This document shows, piece by piece, positions 35,622 through 43,197 of a stretch of DNA of 64,000 nucleotides. The DNA lies in assembly GCF_000970025.1 (NCBI RefSeq), contig NZ_CP009528.1, positions 3,273,168-3,337,167 on the forward strand. Direction: 5' to 3'. A model generated the notes under the pieces. It saw only the letters and a list, made by a program, of their open reading frames with translations. It searched no databases and had not been told where the DNA came from. Position 1 is the first letter of the stretch, and the number at the start of each line of letters is the position of its first letter. A program made the position numbers and the translations under genes. Source of the DNA: Methanosarcina barkeri MS (lineage in GTDB: Archaea > Halobacteriota > Methanosarcinia > Methanosarcinales > Methanosarcinaceae).

Positions 35622-36044
35622 TTGATTAGAAGCTACAGGAAAACAGATCTTGAAGAGATGGTAAAGATCTGGTACGAAGCCTCAGTTATTGCACATTTCT
35701 TTATCCCTGCCTCGTTCTGGGCTTCGCAAAAGAACGCAATGAAGGAGGAGTACCTTCCACTCGCCGAAAACTTTGTTTTTGAGGAAGAAGGGCAGATTTC
35801 AGGATTCATCTCCCTTGTTGGGAAACATGTCTGCGCCCTTTTCGTTGCGCCGGAAATGCAGGGTCGAGGAATTGGCAGAGCTCTTTTAGAATATGCAAAA
35901 ACCCTGAAAGGGAGGCTCTCTCTCAAAGTTTACAGAGAAAACGAGAGTGCCTTTCACTTTTATGAAAAGTGTGGGTTTGTGGCGACTGGTGAAGAGATTG
36001 ATGAGTATACAGGTTGTGCGCAGATCTTGATGGAATGGAAATAA
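35622..36044 (+). CDS. GNAT-family N-acetyltransferase
   Basis: A 140-aa acetyl-CoA-dependent acetyltransferase. It opens IRSYRKTDLEEMVKIWYEAS and has the acetyl-CoA loop LFVAPEMQGRGIGRALLEYAK (about 78-98) and the C-terminal NESAFHFYEKCGFVATGEE motif. It resembles the YjaB/PhnO type. Start is TTG with GGAAAG upstream. Substrate unknown. Confidence 0.9.
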   Translation: MIRSYRKTDLEEMVKIWYEASVIAHFFIPASFWASQKNAMKEEYLPLAENFVFEEEGQISGFISLVGKHVCALFVAPEMQGRGIGRALLEYAKTLKGRLSLKVYRENESAFHFYEKCGFVATGEEIDEYTGCAQILMEWK

Positions 36045-36180
36045 AATCAGGTAAATTCAAAAATAGAAAGGATCTGTTGACGGGCTGGAGATTTAAACAC
36101 GTTATTTTGAGGAACTGAGGGATTTTAATGCATTCTGACAGTGGGAACCATAAAAAAGCTGAAATAAAAAACTATGGGAC

Positions 36181-36450
36181 TTACTAACTCATCTTACTAA
36201 CTCATCTTACTAACTCATCTTACTAACTCATCTTACTAACTCATCTTACTAACTCATCTTACTAACTCATCTTACCAACTCATCTTACTAACTCATCTTA
36301 CTAACTCTTCTTACTAACTCTTCTTACTAACTCTTCTTACTAACTCTTCTTACTAACTCTTCTTACTAACTCTTCTTACTAACTCTTCTTACTAACTCAT
36401 CTGACTAACTCATCTGACTAACTCATCTGACTAACTCATCTGACTAACTC
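36181..36450. repeat. 13-bp minisatellite, about 20 copies, upstream of hsdM
   Basis: Twenty or so units of ttactaactcatc. Variants are grouped: first actcatctt, then actcttctt, then actcatctga. It ends 111 bases before the hsdM start codon. Confidence 0.97.
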
Positions 36451-36561: not shown

Positions 36562-38115
36562 ATGACAAAAAATACAGCAGGCTCAAACGGCGCAAATCTA
36601 GGTTTTGAAGAAAAACTCTGGCAGGCGGCGGATAAACTCCGAAACAATATGGACGCAGCAGAGTATAAACATGTAGTACTTGGCCTTATTTTCCTGAAAT
36701 ACATCTCGGATGCTTTTGAGGAGATGCACGAAAAACTTCAATTGGAAGTTGAGGAAGGAGCAGACCCGGAAGATCCGGAAGAATATCTAGCAGAGAATGT
36801 TTTCTGGGTGCCTTCCGAAGCCCGCTGGAACCATCTGGAGAGAAGTGCAAAGCAGCCTAATATTGGGAAAATTGTAGACGAAGCCATGGCTGCAATTGAG
36901 CGGGACAATAATACTCTAAAAGGCGTGCTTCCAAAGAACTACGCAAGGGAAGGACTTGACAAGCAGCGCCTGGGTGAGTTGATTGATCTTGTAGGCACAA
37001 TCGGCCTTGGGGATAAGGAAAGCCGAAGTAAAGACGTGCTTGGCCGAGTTTATGAGTATTTCCTCGGCAGGTTTGCAGATGCAGAGGGCAAGCGCGGCGG
37101 CCAGTTCTATACCCCGAGAAGTATAGTAAGAGTTCTTGTTGAGATGATTGAACCTTATCGAGGACGAATTTATGACCCATGCTGCGGTTCGGGTGGAATG
37201 TTTGTCCAGAGCGAGAAATTTATTGAAGCGCACGAAGGCCGTCTTGAAAATATTTCTATTTTCGGTCAGGAATCAAACCAGACTACCTGGCGACTCTGCA
37301 AAATGAACCTTGCTATCCGAGGTATAGACAACGATGGCATTAAATGGGGTGATTCTTTTCATAATGACCTGCACAAAGACCTGAAAGCCGATTTCATCCT
37401 TTCAAATCCTCCTTTTAACGATTCGGACTGGAAAGGCGAACTTCTTTCCGAAGATGTCCGCTGGAAATTTGGAGTACCACCAAAAGGCAATGCCAATTTC
37501 GCCTGGGTTCAACACTATATCCACCACCTTTCCCCAACTGGAATTGCAGGCTTTGTGCTTGCAAACGGCTCCATGTCTTCAAATACCTCTGGTGAGGGTG
37601 AAATCCGGAAAAATATCATTGAACAGGACCTTGTAGACTGTATGATCGCACTTCCGGGTCAGCTTTTCTACAATACTGGAATCCCAGCCTGCCTATGGTT
37701 CATTGCCCGAGATAAGCAAAACAGCGGTTTCCGCGACCGGAGCGGCGAGGTCCTATTTATTGACGCCCGGAATATGGGAGTTTTACGGGACCGTACCCAC
37801 CGCGAACTTACTGACGAAGAAATCCAGAGAATTGCGGGTACCTACCATGCCTGGCGTGGAGAAAAGATTGAAAGCGGGGAGTATGAAGACATCCCTGGCT
37901 TCTGTAAGGCTGCAACTGTTGATGAAATTAAGAAACACGATTATATACTTACTCCTGGCCGTTACGTAGGTTTTGAAGAGACCGAAGATGATGATGAGGA
38001 ATTTGAAGAGAAAATGAGAAAATTGACTGTAGAACTTTCGGAGCAGTTCAAGAAATCAGAGGAGCTGGAGACGAAAATTAAGGAGAATCTGGCAGGGCTT
38101 GGGTATGAACTCTGA
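36562..38115 (+). CDS. hsdM: Type I restriction-modification methyltransferase subunit
   Basis: Adenine-N6 methyltransferase of a type I system. The N-terminal HsdM domain covers residues 10-145 ([32 protein letters not shown]). The N6-methyltransferase domain follows, with AdoMet motif [15 protein letters not shown] (about 200) and catalytic NPPF in [13 protein letters not shown] (about 280). The C-terminus has a charged coiled coil. The 517 aa are intact and full length. The specificity gene is a relic about 2.7 kb downstream and no hsdR is present, so this is an orphan methylase. Between lie AlbA_2 relics and the Mrr-like nuclease. Confidence 0.95.
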
Positions 38116-39091: not shown

Positions 39092-39130
39092 AATTCTGAC
39101 CCGTACAACCGTATTACCTTATTGGGTCGT

Positions 39131-39158
39131 TCTTGTCACGCTCGACGAAGGAGAGCGG
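39131..39158 (+). repeat. 28-bp inverted repeat, left copy
   Basis: Exact reverse complement of 41427-41454. Each copy contains the small hairpin cgctc-gacgaagga-gagcg. Similarity continues imperfectly inward. The pair encloses the nuclease gene and the hsdS relic. Confidence 0.95.
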
Positions 39159-39342
39159 CCTTTCCGATAATATCATAAAAGAAGAAACAGCAGAACTAAA
39201 CGCCAGCCTGCTAGATACGAAATGCAAAAGGTCTTTACAAGTTGATTAAATTTGTAACATAAGATATTTATTTATAATTTATATTGAACTTGTGTACCCC
39301 TATTGACAGAGAGCCTTACTAAATATAGTCTAAGATGAGAGA

Positions 39343-40686
39343 ATGAATCAAGAACTTATACTTAAGAATATAAATGGTTTTGAATTTGAAGAACTTGTAG
39401 CAGATATCTTTAGGAAGAAGGGATTTAAAAACGTAGTAGTCACACCACGTACAAACGACGGTGGAAAAGATATCATAATGGATGAAGTTTCTCCTTCTGG
39501 AGAAATTATTAAAGCTGTAGTGGAGTGTAAGCATCATAAAACTGGGATAGGAAGACCTGTAGTTCAAAAATTACATTCTGCTGTATCTACCTTAGAATAC
39601 TCTGGCAAGAAAAAAGGGTATATTGTATCTTCCAGTACTTTTACTGATACTGCTGTTGATTATGTAGAAAAAGTAAACAAACAATCAAACAATTTGGTAT
39701 TAGAACTAATTGATGGTAAGAAATTAAAAGAAATTGCATGTGATTTAGGTGTAAATTTAAAAAATGGTGTTATAGAAGCAATCAGTAATAAAAGCGTATC
39801 TTATTCTTCAGAATCATTTATTAAAACAAACACTTTAGAGTCTAACTTTAACAATGTTAATAATATAAACAAAGATCAAGTTTCAGTTGAAGGTTTAAAA
39901 ACCACATTTCATCCAATTTATTACATCAATTATAATATAGATTCTCAATGTGCCACCTCTGTAGGAGTTATACATGAAGAATCAGGAAACGAACAGTTAA
40001 TAATTGATGGTAGAACCGGCAATGAATTGAAAAACGAACTTGAGAATTTTCTTTTAAATGATATAAACAATGAAAAAGAAATTACAAATGGCAGTTGTTT
40101 ACAAGATAAATTAGATTTTCAAAAAAATGAAAATGAGTTGAAAAATCAAGCAATTTCAGAAATCATTAATTCACGCACAAAAAACGTTACTTATAAAGGA
40201 AAAAATAATGTTACTTACAACAAAAAATGTACTCCAAGACCCAAAGATATTACTATCCATGACTGTAGATCATTGTATTATCCTGAATGGACTTTAAACA
40301 TCAAAGCTAAACAAAAAAACTATATTGTATCATTTTTAGAATCGGCTGGAGACTTTATTACATTAAGAAACGATACAAAAGTTTGTCAAATCTGCAATCA
40401 TAAAATTGAGAAAAATAGATGGTATTGCACATATTGTGGGTCTATCATTTGTAAAAAACACCTTAAAGTAACAAGACTTAAAAAAGCAAGGATTTGCACC
40501 AATTGCTCGATAACTAAAAGTTTTTTTGGCGCTAAAAAATATTTTGAGTCAAATGAGGAACTCGAAACTTTCAATAATTACTATGCATCGTTGCCTCTGT
40601 ATAAAAAAATGTGGGAAAATACTTACCTTGTATTTGCTATTGTATTCATAATTATAATTGGACTTTATTTTTTGTTTTTGAATTAA
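39343..40686 (+). CDS. Mrr-like restriction endonuclease with FYVE-like zinc domain and C-terminal membrane helix
   Basis: A 447-aa protein with an unusual layout. Residues 8-125 are a PD-(D/E)XK Mrr-type nuclease domain: GFEFEELVADIFRKKGF, then NDGGKDIIM (metal Asp), then VVECKHHK (E-x-K). Residues 150-330 are Asn/Lys-rich without recognised motifs. Residues about 348-390 have eight zinc ligands in order CQIC, CTYC, CKKH, CTNC, the spacing of a cross-brace (FYVE/RING-like) finger. A hydrophobic helix, VFAIVFIIIIGLYFLF, ends the protein. The gene is intact and clearly more AT-rich than hsdM, pointing to recent transfer. No cognate methylase is adjacent. It may degrade foreign DNA at the membrane; this role is inferred. 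Confidence 0.85.
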   Translation: MNQELILKNINGFEFEELVADIFRKKGFKNVVVTPRTNDGGKDIIMDEVSPSGEIIKAVVECKHHKTGIGRPVVQKLHSAVSTLEYSGKKKGYIVSSSTFTDTAVDYVEKVNKQSNNLVLELIDGKKLKEIACDLGVNLKNGVIEAISNKSVSYSSESFIKTNTLESNFNNVNNINKDQVSVEGLKTTFHPIYYINYNIDSQCATSVGVIHEESGNEQLIIDGRTGNELKNELENFLLNDINNEKEITNGSCLQDKLDFQKNENELKNQAISEIINSRTKNVTYKGKNNVTYNKKCTPRPKDITIHDCRSLYYPEWTLNIKAKQKNYIVSFLESAGDFITLRNDTKVCQICNHKIEKNRWYCTYCGSIICKKHLKVTRLKKARICTNCSITKSFFGAKKYFESNEELETFNNYYASLPLYKKMWENTYLVFAIVFIIIIGLYFLFLN

Positions 40687-40831
40687 CAAAAATTTTTAAA
40701 AATTAAACTTATTTAATAATAGAGCTCATCCAAAACCGATTTATTTTCAAATTAAAAGGTATCACAGTCAATTCATTCCCGGTAACACTATCTTAGGATC
40801 AGCTCAACAAAAATAATATGGAGAAGAGCAA

Positions 40832-41272
40832 TTGGCCTCTGAAACAAAATTCAAAGAAACCGAGATTGGGATGATTCCTGAAGAGTGGAAAGTCAAAGAG
40901 AGTTAGGAGAAATTTCAGTCAATCTTGACAATAAAAGAGTGCCTTTATCAGCAAAAGAAAGAGAAAAAATGAAGGGAATTTATCCTTATTACGGTGCTCA
41001 AGGAATCATAGATCACATAAATGATTATATTTTTGATGGAACTTACTTGCTTGTAGCGGAAGACGATGAAAATCTAAAATCTCACAAGGAAAAAATAGCA
41101 ACTATTGCAAAAGGAAAATTTTGGGTAAATAACCATGCTCACATAATATCTAATAACGAAAAAAACGATTTGAAATTCTTGTATTATTTCATTAACACAG
41201 TTATGTATCAAAGTACCTAACCGGTTCAGTTCAGCCAAAGTTAAATCAAAATAATCTTAATAGAATTCTCAT
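40832..41272 (+). pseudogene. hsdS: Truncated, frameshifted type I specificity subunit
   Basis: A TTG at 40832 with GGAGAAG upstream starts ASETKFKETEIGMIPEEWKV, the typical HsdS opening. A one-base frameshift at about 40895-40905 leads to KELGEISVNLDNKRVPLSAKERE...GIYPYYGAQGIIDHINDYIFDG and HAHIISNN. Another shift near 41220 leads to GSVQPKLNQNNLNRILI, after which similarity ends. Only the first of two target-recognition domains remains, about 150 of some 400 residues. The product cannot give a working enzyme with hsdM. Confidence 0.85.
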
Positions 41273-41426
41273 AGTTGAGGATATGCAGCTAATCAAAAAT
41301 TTAGTGTCACGTGCGGCTGGAATCAATGAATTCCTTGAATAAAGGATTTTAATCTCATTTTTTCTTTTGTGCCTATTTCTGTGACTATTATTATAATGAT
41401 ATTCTTTTTGTAATTTCACGGAATGA

Positions 41427-41454
41427 CCGCTCTCCTTCGTCGAGCGTGACAAGA
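41427..41454 (-). repeat. 28-bp inverted repeat, right copy
   Basis: Exact reverse complement of 39131-39158, about 85 bases past the end of the hsdS relic. No transposase or recombinase lies between the copies. Confidence 0.95.
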
Positions 41455-41660
41455 CACATTAAAGACGGCTAAAATAGAGATTTTCTGGTGAAAATTGTCA
41501 CCTAGTTAGATTTCAATATACATTGAACTAAGAAATTTTCCAGTCACTTTTGCTTTAGAATATTTTTTGTTTTGCTTTAGAATCATTTTTGCCCGAAAAT
41601 TTTGCAATTTTTCCTGAAATATTCCTGATTTTATAACTATTAAAACCGGAATATGCGAAA

Positions 41661-41957: not shown

Positions 41958-42109
41958 TAACTGTGTTGGACTAATTTACAGATCAAAAACTGTGAAGAAA
42001 AATAAAACCCAGGAAAACTGAAAGAAAAGCAATCCTGAAATCGGGAAAGTCTGAAATTGGGAAAGCTTGCGATCAAGGAAGCCTGGAATTGAGTAACGAG
42101 GAATCTGCA

Positions 42110-42568
42110 ATGAAATTTCCAATGAAAAGAACAGACCGTGACATGTATAGCTGGGACCCATTTGATGAGATCAGAAGAATGCAGAACTATATGGAACATA
42201 TGTTCAGGACTTTTCCTGCACTGGAAAGCCGGTTCGGAAACGAAGCCTTCTCTCCACTAACTGATGTAATGGAAGAAGACGATAAGGTAGTTGTGACAAC
42301 CGACCTTCCCGGGGTTGACAGGGAAGATGTTGAACTCAATCTAAAGGATAATGTTCTGGTAATCAGTGCAGGGAAAGGAAATGAAGAAGAAGCTGAAAAA
42401 GAAGGTTACCTCAGAAAAGAACGGTCTTTCATGCGCTATTACCGCGAGATTCCTCTTCCCGACGGCGTAAATGAAGAAGGAGCAACTGCGCAGCTCAAAA
42501 ACGGCGTCTTAACTGTCACTCTACCGAAAACAAAACCTGTAACTGGAAAGAAAATCGAGATTGAATAA
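42110..42568 (+). CDS. Hsp20/alpha-crystallin small heat-shock protein
   Basis: An ATP-independent holdase that binds unfolding proteins and oligomerises. The protein has 152 aa from the ATG at 42110, chosen because GAGGAA lies 6 bases upstream; a TTG seven codons earlier is less likely. The alpha-crystallin domain covers about 50-140: PLTDVMEEDDKVVVTTDLPGVDREDVELNLKDNVLVISAG, then the conserved NGVLTVTLPK near the end. The N-terminal WDPFDEIRRMQNYMEHMF is typical of archaeal Hsp20. Heat control may act through the region upstream. Confidence 0.95.
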   Translation: MKFPMKRTDRDMYSWDPFDEIRRMQNYMEHMFRTFPALESRFGNEAFSPLTDVMEEDDKVVVTTDLPGVDREDVELNLKDNVLVISAGKGNEEEAEKEGYLRKERSFMRYYREIPLPDGVNEEGATAQLKNGVLTVTLPKTKPVTGKKIEIE

Positions 42569-43197
42569 ACCAGCACTCAGGATAAAAATACTCAAACAAC
42601 GTATCACAATACCGATACCACAATCTACCACAATCCGAATAAGTTGAATTTCAACTTGATTTCAGCCTAAAACTCTCAATCTCTATAAATCACATGCGGA
42701 CAGACTCAGGAATAAGACTCTGAAAGCCTGCAGGCTGCCCGCAATAAAACGGAAATTCGATATATTGTTTATTTACCTCCTATATTTACCCCCTATATTT
42801 ACCTCCTATATTTACCTCCTATATTTACCTCCTATATTTACCCCCTATATTTACCCCCTATTTATTAATTGTCTGATTATTTGCTCCCTATTTACTAATT
42901 GTTTGATTATTTACTTCCTATTTATTAATTTTCTGAGTATTTACTTCCTATTTATTAATTTTCTGAGTATTTACTTCCTATTTACTAATTTTCTGGTTAT
43001 TTACTTCCTATTTACTAATTTTCTAATTATTTGCTTCCTGTATATTCTTTCCCAAAAAATTTAATTGCACTATTCATGTTTTAGTTTCGGAACATATTAT
43101 TTTCGGACTCATAAAGCTCTGAAAACCTGTGTAAGAATTATTCTAAAACGTTTTAAGAAATCAAGAAAGCCGCAAGAGTCCTCATTCACCTGAAGGA
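42569..43197. other. Intergenic region between hsp20 and AMMECR1, mostly repeats
   Basis: Begins with ordinary sequence holding a 17-bp palindrome (aagttgaa-t-ttcaactt, 42641-42657), then the large repeat at 42762-43040. The 99-codon ORF across the repeat encodes only Phe/Ile/Leu/Tyr/Pro low-complexity sequence and was not called. Confidence 0.7.
42762..43040. repeat. Two adjoining tandem repeats
   Basis: First part (to about 42865): 12-13-bp units of tatatttacctcc/cccc. Second part: roughly 36-bp units of tgattatttacttcctatttattaattttc, about five copies. They share the word atttac-tcctat, so the longer unit may derive from the shorter. Confidence 0.93.

Follow-up and report, generated by a model that had tools for sequence, protein, structure and literature searches.

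Intergenic mosaic elements of Neisseria (dRS3/RS) are dispersed intergenic repeats that have been proposed to promote exchange of neighbouring loci, and minimal mobile elements are alternative cassettes, often restriction-modification genes, which lie between conserved genes and are moved by homologous recombination (passages of PMC3898611). In SpnIII-type invertible hsdS systems, repeats inside duplicated hsdS genes swap recognition domains (passages of PMC7394358). REP sequences have been reported in archaea, and Methanosarcina is not mentioned in the relevant passages of that source or in its hits to a term search (PMC12306157). A Methanosarcina genome is said to hold more than four type I systems (passages of PMC10609329). 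Neither the repeat studied here nor a repeat-bracketed hsdS in Methanosarcina was found described in a literature search that was poor in subscription papers and had the classic Methanosarcina genome papers outside it.

We analysed a stretch of 64,000 nucleotides from Methanosarcina barkeri MS (the window), in which inverted repeats bracket a nuclease gene and an hsdS remnant. In our judgement, two facing copies of a genus-wide, REP-like intergenic repeat, which bracket the hsdS slot, have probably acted as homologous-recombination joints for defence cargo, with one inversion. The bracket around the hsdS slot of this type I restriction-modification locus is old, and the repeat is an ordinary dispersed one whose position here is unusual, conserved and demonstrably recombinogenic. 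On this account an anonymous inverted repeat becomes a natural record of archaeal restriction-locus reshuffling: one small repeat is the joint for independent change of the modules on either side, and its facing copies inverted the specificity slot. Such a portable joint would help explain the turnover of type I specificity and accessory nucleases in Methanosarcina.

This behaviour resembles that of the Neisseria repeats and minimal mobile elements more than SpnIII-type hsdS shuffling. Dispersed repeats and differing cassettes, here between an acetyltransferase gene and hsp20, are found in both (passages of PMC3898611), whereas the domain of life and the sequence are different, and in Methanosarcina the repeat itself joins inner and outer modules and its copies face each other around hsdS. 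Inverted repeats and an inversion at repeats in a type I locus (once, in genomes G003 and G025) are shared with SpnIII-type systems, but the Methanosarcina bracket holds a single hsdS, the repeats lie outside it and the whole slot inverts. Like REP sequences, the element is short, dispersed and intergenic, with many copies and a core able to form a hairpin; its copy numbers are, however, modest and its length is about 90 bp. Only 1 of 30 Y1_Tnp loci (from 47 listed matches in 7 genomes) had a copy of at least 20 bits, giving no link to the REP-associated Y1 transposase; an IS200/IS605 link was rejected on the same count. MITEs are likewise small dispersed non-coding repeats, but no terminal inverted repeats of the Methanosarcina element were seen apart from the core hairpin.

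Repeat arms and genes in the window

Direct sequence comparison verified the coordinates of an earlier note, which had reported positions 39131-39158 and 41427-41454 as exact reverse complements of 28 bp each; pairing of the arms continues to 53 nt at 83%. Allowing up to 3 mismatches, a 21-base core was found in the 64-kb window only at the two arms; in 100 dinucleotide shuffles of the window it was found 0 times. Each arm sits inside a complete copy of a longer repeat, as defined by an nhmmer profile of 154 copies, and the outer halves of both arms also resemble the repeat family. Since the arms belong to full family members, most of their perfect identity comes from the family core, with five further bases in common. 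The cargo is what the same note had read it to be, a nuclease and an hsdS relic (Pfam matches to Mrr_cat and Methylase_S), with in addition the final ~20 codons of a gene resembling PDC-M57B (Table 1). Its statement that the 2.27 kb between the arms hold no transposase agrees with our Pfam searches to the extent that neither transposase nor recombinase was found among the seven window proteins searched (five in one scan and two in another).

Table 1. Features of the bracketed locus, in window coordinates
Feature	Position	Strand	Basis
GNAT acetyltransferase, conserved left border	35622..36044	+	Pfam; synteny
hsdM, 517 aa, open frame	36562..38115	+	Pfam HsdM_N/N6_Mtase; tblastn map
Broken AlbA_2/ATPase-type gene remnant with winged helix	38423..39091	+	Pfam HATPase_c_4, HTH_24; tblastn
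Left repeat copy, ~90-bp dispersed element	39093..39190	+	nhmmer profile, 80.1 bits; holds arm 39131-39158
Mrr module, borders approximate	39230..40800	+	Alignment; replaces short left copy-hsdS spacer seen in G003, G025 and G010
Mrr-like nuclease, 447 aa	39343..40686	+	Pfam Mrr_cat, 92.9 bits; PADLOC PDC-S02 and mREase_IV
hsdS fragment, 111 aa, one target-recognition domain	40885..41220	+	Pfam Methylase_S, 37 bits; PADLOC Specificity_I
PDC-M57B-like 3′ tail, right after hsdS fragment	41277..41336	+	tblastn with G004 protein, residues 217-236 of 236
Right repeat copy, opposite orientation	41397..41476	-	nhmmer, 60.6 bits; holds arm 41427-41454
hsp20, conserved right border	42089..42568	+	Pfam; synteny

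Gene order in the window is hsdM, broken AlbA-like gene, left copy, Mrr, hsdS fragment, PDC-M57B tail, right copy and hsp20. The counterpart of the AlbA_2/ATPase-type remnant in G010 is a single open frame of 486 aa. No hsdR was found between acetyltransferase and hsp20 in the window by tblastn mapping. The locus is decayed and not a working switch: hsdS is broken, hsdR is absent and an Mrr-like nuclease lies in the slot. The name PDC-M57B is taken from the PADLOC match of the G010 homologue; a GIY-YIG label for this protein, a sequence-based guess with no Pfam match, was dropped. Read from its sequence, the Mrr-like protein, which PADLOC also matches to the candidate family PDC-S02, shows a stretch rich in Cys and, towards the C-terminus, a hydrophobic segment that is membrane-spanning in appearance. 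Tandem arrays were also noticed: about 21 copies of a 13-bp unit at 36180-36450, between the acetyltransferase gene and hsdM, within which blast alignments to G004 change register, and A+T-rich arrays of 13-bp and 30-bp units at 42770-43063, downstream of hsp20.

A repeat family dispersed through the genus

The core GTCACGCTCGACGNAGGAGAGCG has nine exact sites and one with 3 mismatches in its own genome (G000; 4,574,907 bases), where the full 28-mer is perfect only at the two window sites. With up to 3 mismatches, it occurs in 28 of 30 Methanosarcina genomes (475 matches summed, at most 71 per genome), and a reversed control pattern gave 0 matches in the same 30. The core was also found in at least 120 stretches of named genomes; among the matches listed, nearly all titles are Methanosarcina, Methanosarcinaceae or Euryarchaeota. 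Two MAG contigs titled Cloacimonadota and Zoogloeaceae (L075 and L096) carry the Methanosarcina repeat and are probably misbinned. Viral contigs searched with the 20-base core gave 0 matches.

The profile of 154 distinct copies outlines an element of ~90 bp with a weaker 5′ half, an almost invariant core, this invariance being partly built in as copies were chosen by the core, and an A-rich 3′ part. As judged with a crude ORF caller, 61 of the 154 copies lie between co-directional, 33 between convergent and 17 between divergent ORFs; another 17 lie within an ORF of at least 100 aa, and for 26 the stretch shows no neighbouring ORF on at least one side. Rfam searches at gathering scores matched nothing in the window, and at nine own-genome loci no family fell on the repeat. 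Near another own-genome copy, Rfam sRNA41 (RF02905) was matched with 88.5 bits on the - strand of L004 (2177-2290). An intrinsic terminator was rejected, the stretch after the core being A-rich and not T-rich. An RNA stem in the 5′ half (GACCC/GGGTC) was rejected as well: in the column profile one side has G-to-A changes and the opposite side is mostly C.

The core holds the arms of the 5-bp-stem hairpin, CGCTC and GAGCG, that the earlier note had pointed out. Each base pair of the stem can form in at least 97% of the 196-198 distinct copies compared for it; the arms are nearly invariant, with few double changes, and therefore yield little covariation information. Among corresponding copies of the locus, loop and stem vary together (CGCTC-GACGNAGGA-GAGCG, CGCTC-GAA-GAGCG, and stems such as CCGCTCGC-GCGAGCGG with short loops), and the variant loops and longer stems preserve the hairpin. 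The arms are present in the window copy, and its DNA fold is no better than that of shuffles (z 0.33); two copies of the CCGCTCGC-GCGAGCGG class did better (z -2.82 and -1.32). A hairpin function of the core is plausible from these patterns.

Pairs of copies less than 10 kb apart were counted at 121 positions in six genomes with complete match lists (G000, G001 and G003-G006; G002 was left out). Eighteen were direct and three inverted, with 7.3 pairs expected at random; facing repeat pairs are therefore unusual. Only two close pairs face each other, and both are the hsdS-slot locus (G000 and G003). Because the repeat is dispersed singly, yet is linked to hsdS cargo, the searches of the whole genome and of relatives bore out one half of what the earlier note had set against its own proposal, single scatter as an ordinary intergenic repeat, and not the other, the lack of any link to this cargo.

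The bracketed slot in other genomes

The layout of this old locus is acetyltransferase, hsdM, in some cases a TPR-like gene, left copy (+), cargo, right copy (-), hsdR and hsp20; "TPR-like" is a provisional name, as neither of two such proteins scanned had a Pfam match. In G005 and G017 the order is hsdM, TPR-like gene, left copy, hsdS, right copy, small hsp20, hsdR and hsp20. In G010 it is hsdM, AlbA_2/ATPase gene, TPR-like gene, left copy, hsdS, PDC-M57A (DUF6884), PDC-M57B, right copy, hsdR and hsp20; PADLOC lists the PDC-M57A/PDC-M57B pair, inside the bracket after hsdS (L233, 8386-9472), as candidate defence genes. Among loci selected by a match to hsdS or to the repeat, the bracketed cargo is hsdS alone, hsdS with PDC-M57A/B, PDC-M57A/B, or Mrr with a broken hsdS, and the acetyltransferase-hsp20 interval differs in gene content among the genomes mapped.

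Left (+) and right (-) copies occur together in ten genomes: G000, G001, G003, G004 (split), G005, G007, G010, G017, G022 and G025. Low profile scores mean that the left copies of G005, G007, G010, G017 and G022 (8-19 bits) were identified by place and alignment, and that of G001 (two pieces, 7-16 bits) by place. The right copy is present in 13 genomes, three of which (G006, G011 and G028) were seen with it alone; it lies at the corresponding place in G001, G004, G005, G006, G007, G010, G011, G017, G022 and G028. At the acetyltransferase-hsp20 site no bracket repeat was found in G002, G003, G008, G009, G012, G013, G019, G020, G021, G025 and G027, and G020 has only a 7-bit fragment, outside the interval. 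The survey of this site covered G000-G013, G017, G019-G025 and G027-G029; the stretches fetched for G023, G024 and G029 held hsp20 but not the rest. Because the acetyltransferase gene of G003, G012, G013 and G027 almost directly abuts the hsp20 flank, 36.05-41.58 kb of the window is the interval absent from these genomes.

The inner flank of the left copy adjoins the hsdS start in G003, G025 and G010; G000 has instead of ~60 bp a piece of ~1.57 kb there, which includes the Mrr gene. The earlier note had proposed a look for target-site duplications; alignment of G000 with G003, G025 and G010 showed none at the Mrr junctions, and insertion of Mrr with such a duplication was rejected. By alignment, G004 has the left copy and Mrr as in G000. 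These lie at 3,546 kb and the right copy with hsp20 at 3,808 kb, in opposite senses relative to the window, the pattern expected from a large inversion. Since G004 holds them 260 kb apart, left and right copies are separable. Directly beside the G004 right copy, ~446 bp (L200, 8224-8670) are inserted relative to the window (41472/41474).

Inversion, module assortment and competing readings

G003 and G025 carry the bracket at another chromosomal site, flanked by the TPR-like gene and small hsp20 as in G005, and in the tblastn map the hsdS start and the PDC-M57B tail between the copies have the reverse orientation. The outer flank of the TPR-side copy resembles the left flank of G004 (z 36.6 for G003 and 38.0 for G025), and its inner flank the right flanks of G000 and G004 (z 17.7 and 15.7 for G003; 44.5 and 39.1 for G025). 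At the other copy of G003, the outer flank resembles the right flanks of G005, G017 and G028 (z 19.0, 24.6 and 12.6) and the inner flank the left flanks of G000, G004 and G010 (z 13.4, 17.7 and 19.0). In both genomes outer left is joined to inner right and outer right to inner left, with the joins within both repeats. Such a flank pattern is the signature of recombination between two facing copies. Because G003 and G025 are sisters in gene trees, a single inversion event accounts for both; that only one event is seen counts against the best explanation. A variable core site is A in both G000 copies and C in both G003 copies, and the separated copies of G004 differ (A and C). Recombination or gene conversion via the repeats is favoured by this agreement of paired cores and their difference in the split G004.

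Further evidence of joining came from the right copy, whose outer and inner flanks were compared in 13 genomes over 150 bp each, the element itself being skipped. Outer flanks are of type A (G005, G017, G028, G003 and G025) or type B (G004, G006, G007, G010, G011 and G022), with G000 and G001 unmatched. Inner flanks are of type X, the PDC-M57B end (G000, G003, G004, G010, G025 and G028), or type Y, the hsdS end (G001, G005, G007, G017 and G022), with G006 and G011 unmatched. Within-type z scores are at least 7.6 and between-type scores at most 3.8. All four combinations exist: AX (G028, G003 and G025), AY (G005 and G017), BX (G004 and G010) and BY (G022 and G007). The acetyltransferase and hsp20 trees, in which some supports are low, give the groups {G000, G003, G004, G025}, {G005, G017, G028} and {G007, G010, G022}; G007 is missing from the hsp20 tree and G025 from the acetyltransferase tree, and the first group forms a grade close to G012 and G013. 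Flank types cut across these groups: the close relatives G005 and G028, like the close relatives G010 and G022, differ inside, and G003 and G004 differ outside. The letters at the X and Y junctions are common to different tree groups. Since two outer and two inner types combine four ways across clades, the repeat itself is the joint at the right copy.

Nearly all genomes share the inner flank of the left copy, the match being weak for G000 and G004, where Mrr intervenes; outer flanks of this copy form the types {G003, G004, G025}, {G005, G017} and {G007, G010, G022}, with G000 alone. G027 has a further type I system, with an HsdM 49% identical, that carries the same inner-left flank and its own copy between hsdM and hsdS (L238, contig 79), which suggests that hsdS may have been exchanged between paralogous type I systems.

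Two of the three interpretations offered in the earlier note were supported: inversion sites within a type I locus, as history, with the interior of G003 and G025 inverted exactly between the copies, and recombination scars, through the four flank combinations. The copies would offer portable homology on which homologous recombination or gene conversion by the cell itself could act. Copies that face each other would permit inversion of the slot, and copies on incoming or duplicated DNA would permit replacement of modules on either side. An identity of 28 bp is short for homologous recombination, being near the lower limit for efficient recombination in bacteria, and counts against this explanation. 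Methanosarcina is polyploid. A bolder version, which we consider rather unlikely, makes the repeat a genus-wide recombination joint, perhaps served by an enzyme of its own that is specific for the hairpin or the site, and has it build slots for defence cargo that can be both swapped and inverted, the type I hsdS bracket being the first recognised example; if true, archaea would own a repeat-based shuffling system for restriction specificity.

Plain decay, in which the repeats are inert and whole-gene deletions and insertions naturally end beside them, would suit the mostly intergenic contexts of the 154 copies and the many decayed loci. Parallel insertions or deletions ending at the repeat could in principle yield the assortment of flanks, which counts against the repeat as a joint, though different clades have the X and Y junctions in common. 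We consider plain decay unlikely, as the inversion joins lie inside both repeats and the A/B and X/Y flanks, always separated by the repeat, recur in different clades in all four combinations.

A programmed phase-variation switch, with a recombinase inverting the bracketed hsdS cassette in living populations, would fit a bracket that encloses hsdS and the derived inversion of G003 and G025, and hsdS inversion is known in bacteria (passages of PMC7394358). We nevertheless regard it as quite unlikely: no recombinase was found beside the bracket among the proteins scanned, the inversion is known only from the wrecked locus, and in the intact loci of G005, G017 and G010 left-right identity is low because the left core is of a different hairpin class from the right.

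A non-autonomous, MITE-like 2.3-kb transposon that carries Mrr and hsdS and has the arms as its terminal inverted repeats, the remaining interpretation of the earlier note, is prompted by perfect 28-bp facing arms around cargo without a transposase, but is very improbable and largely refuted, as copies are mostly single and close pairs mostly direct, each end is a whole dispersed repeat with a family-like outer half, cargo differs between corresponding brackets, Mrr and the left copy are parted from the right copy in G004, and no target-site duplication was seen at the Mrr junctions.

Returning to the repeat as a recombination joint, its association with hsdS is an enrichment and not a rule. 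Among the matches listed, 10 of 95 hsdS loci have a copy of at least 25 bits within 700 bp, several of the ten being counterparts across genomes, and 85 have none; within 3.5 kb the number is 16. The repeat gave 18 matches, one copy being double-counted, in 715,064 b near hsdS, against 1 in 400,000 b of random stretches, a control that is small and unmatched for intergenic content. At 2.41 Mb of the own genome (L204, 8579-15322), three copies, all with the same orientation, accompany another hsdRMS locus, where one precedes hsdR and two follow hsdS; its G003 counterpart (L205) retains only the hsdS end and three copies.
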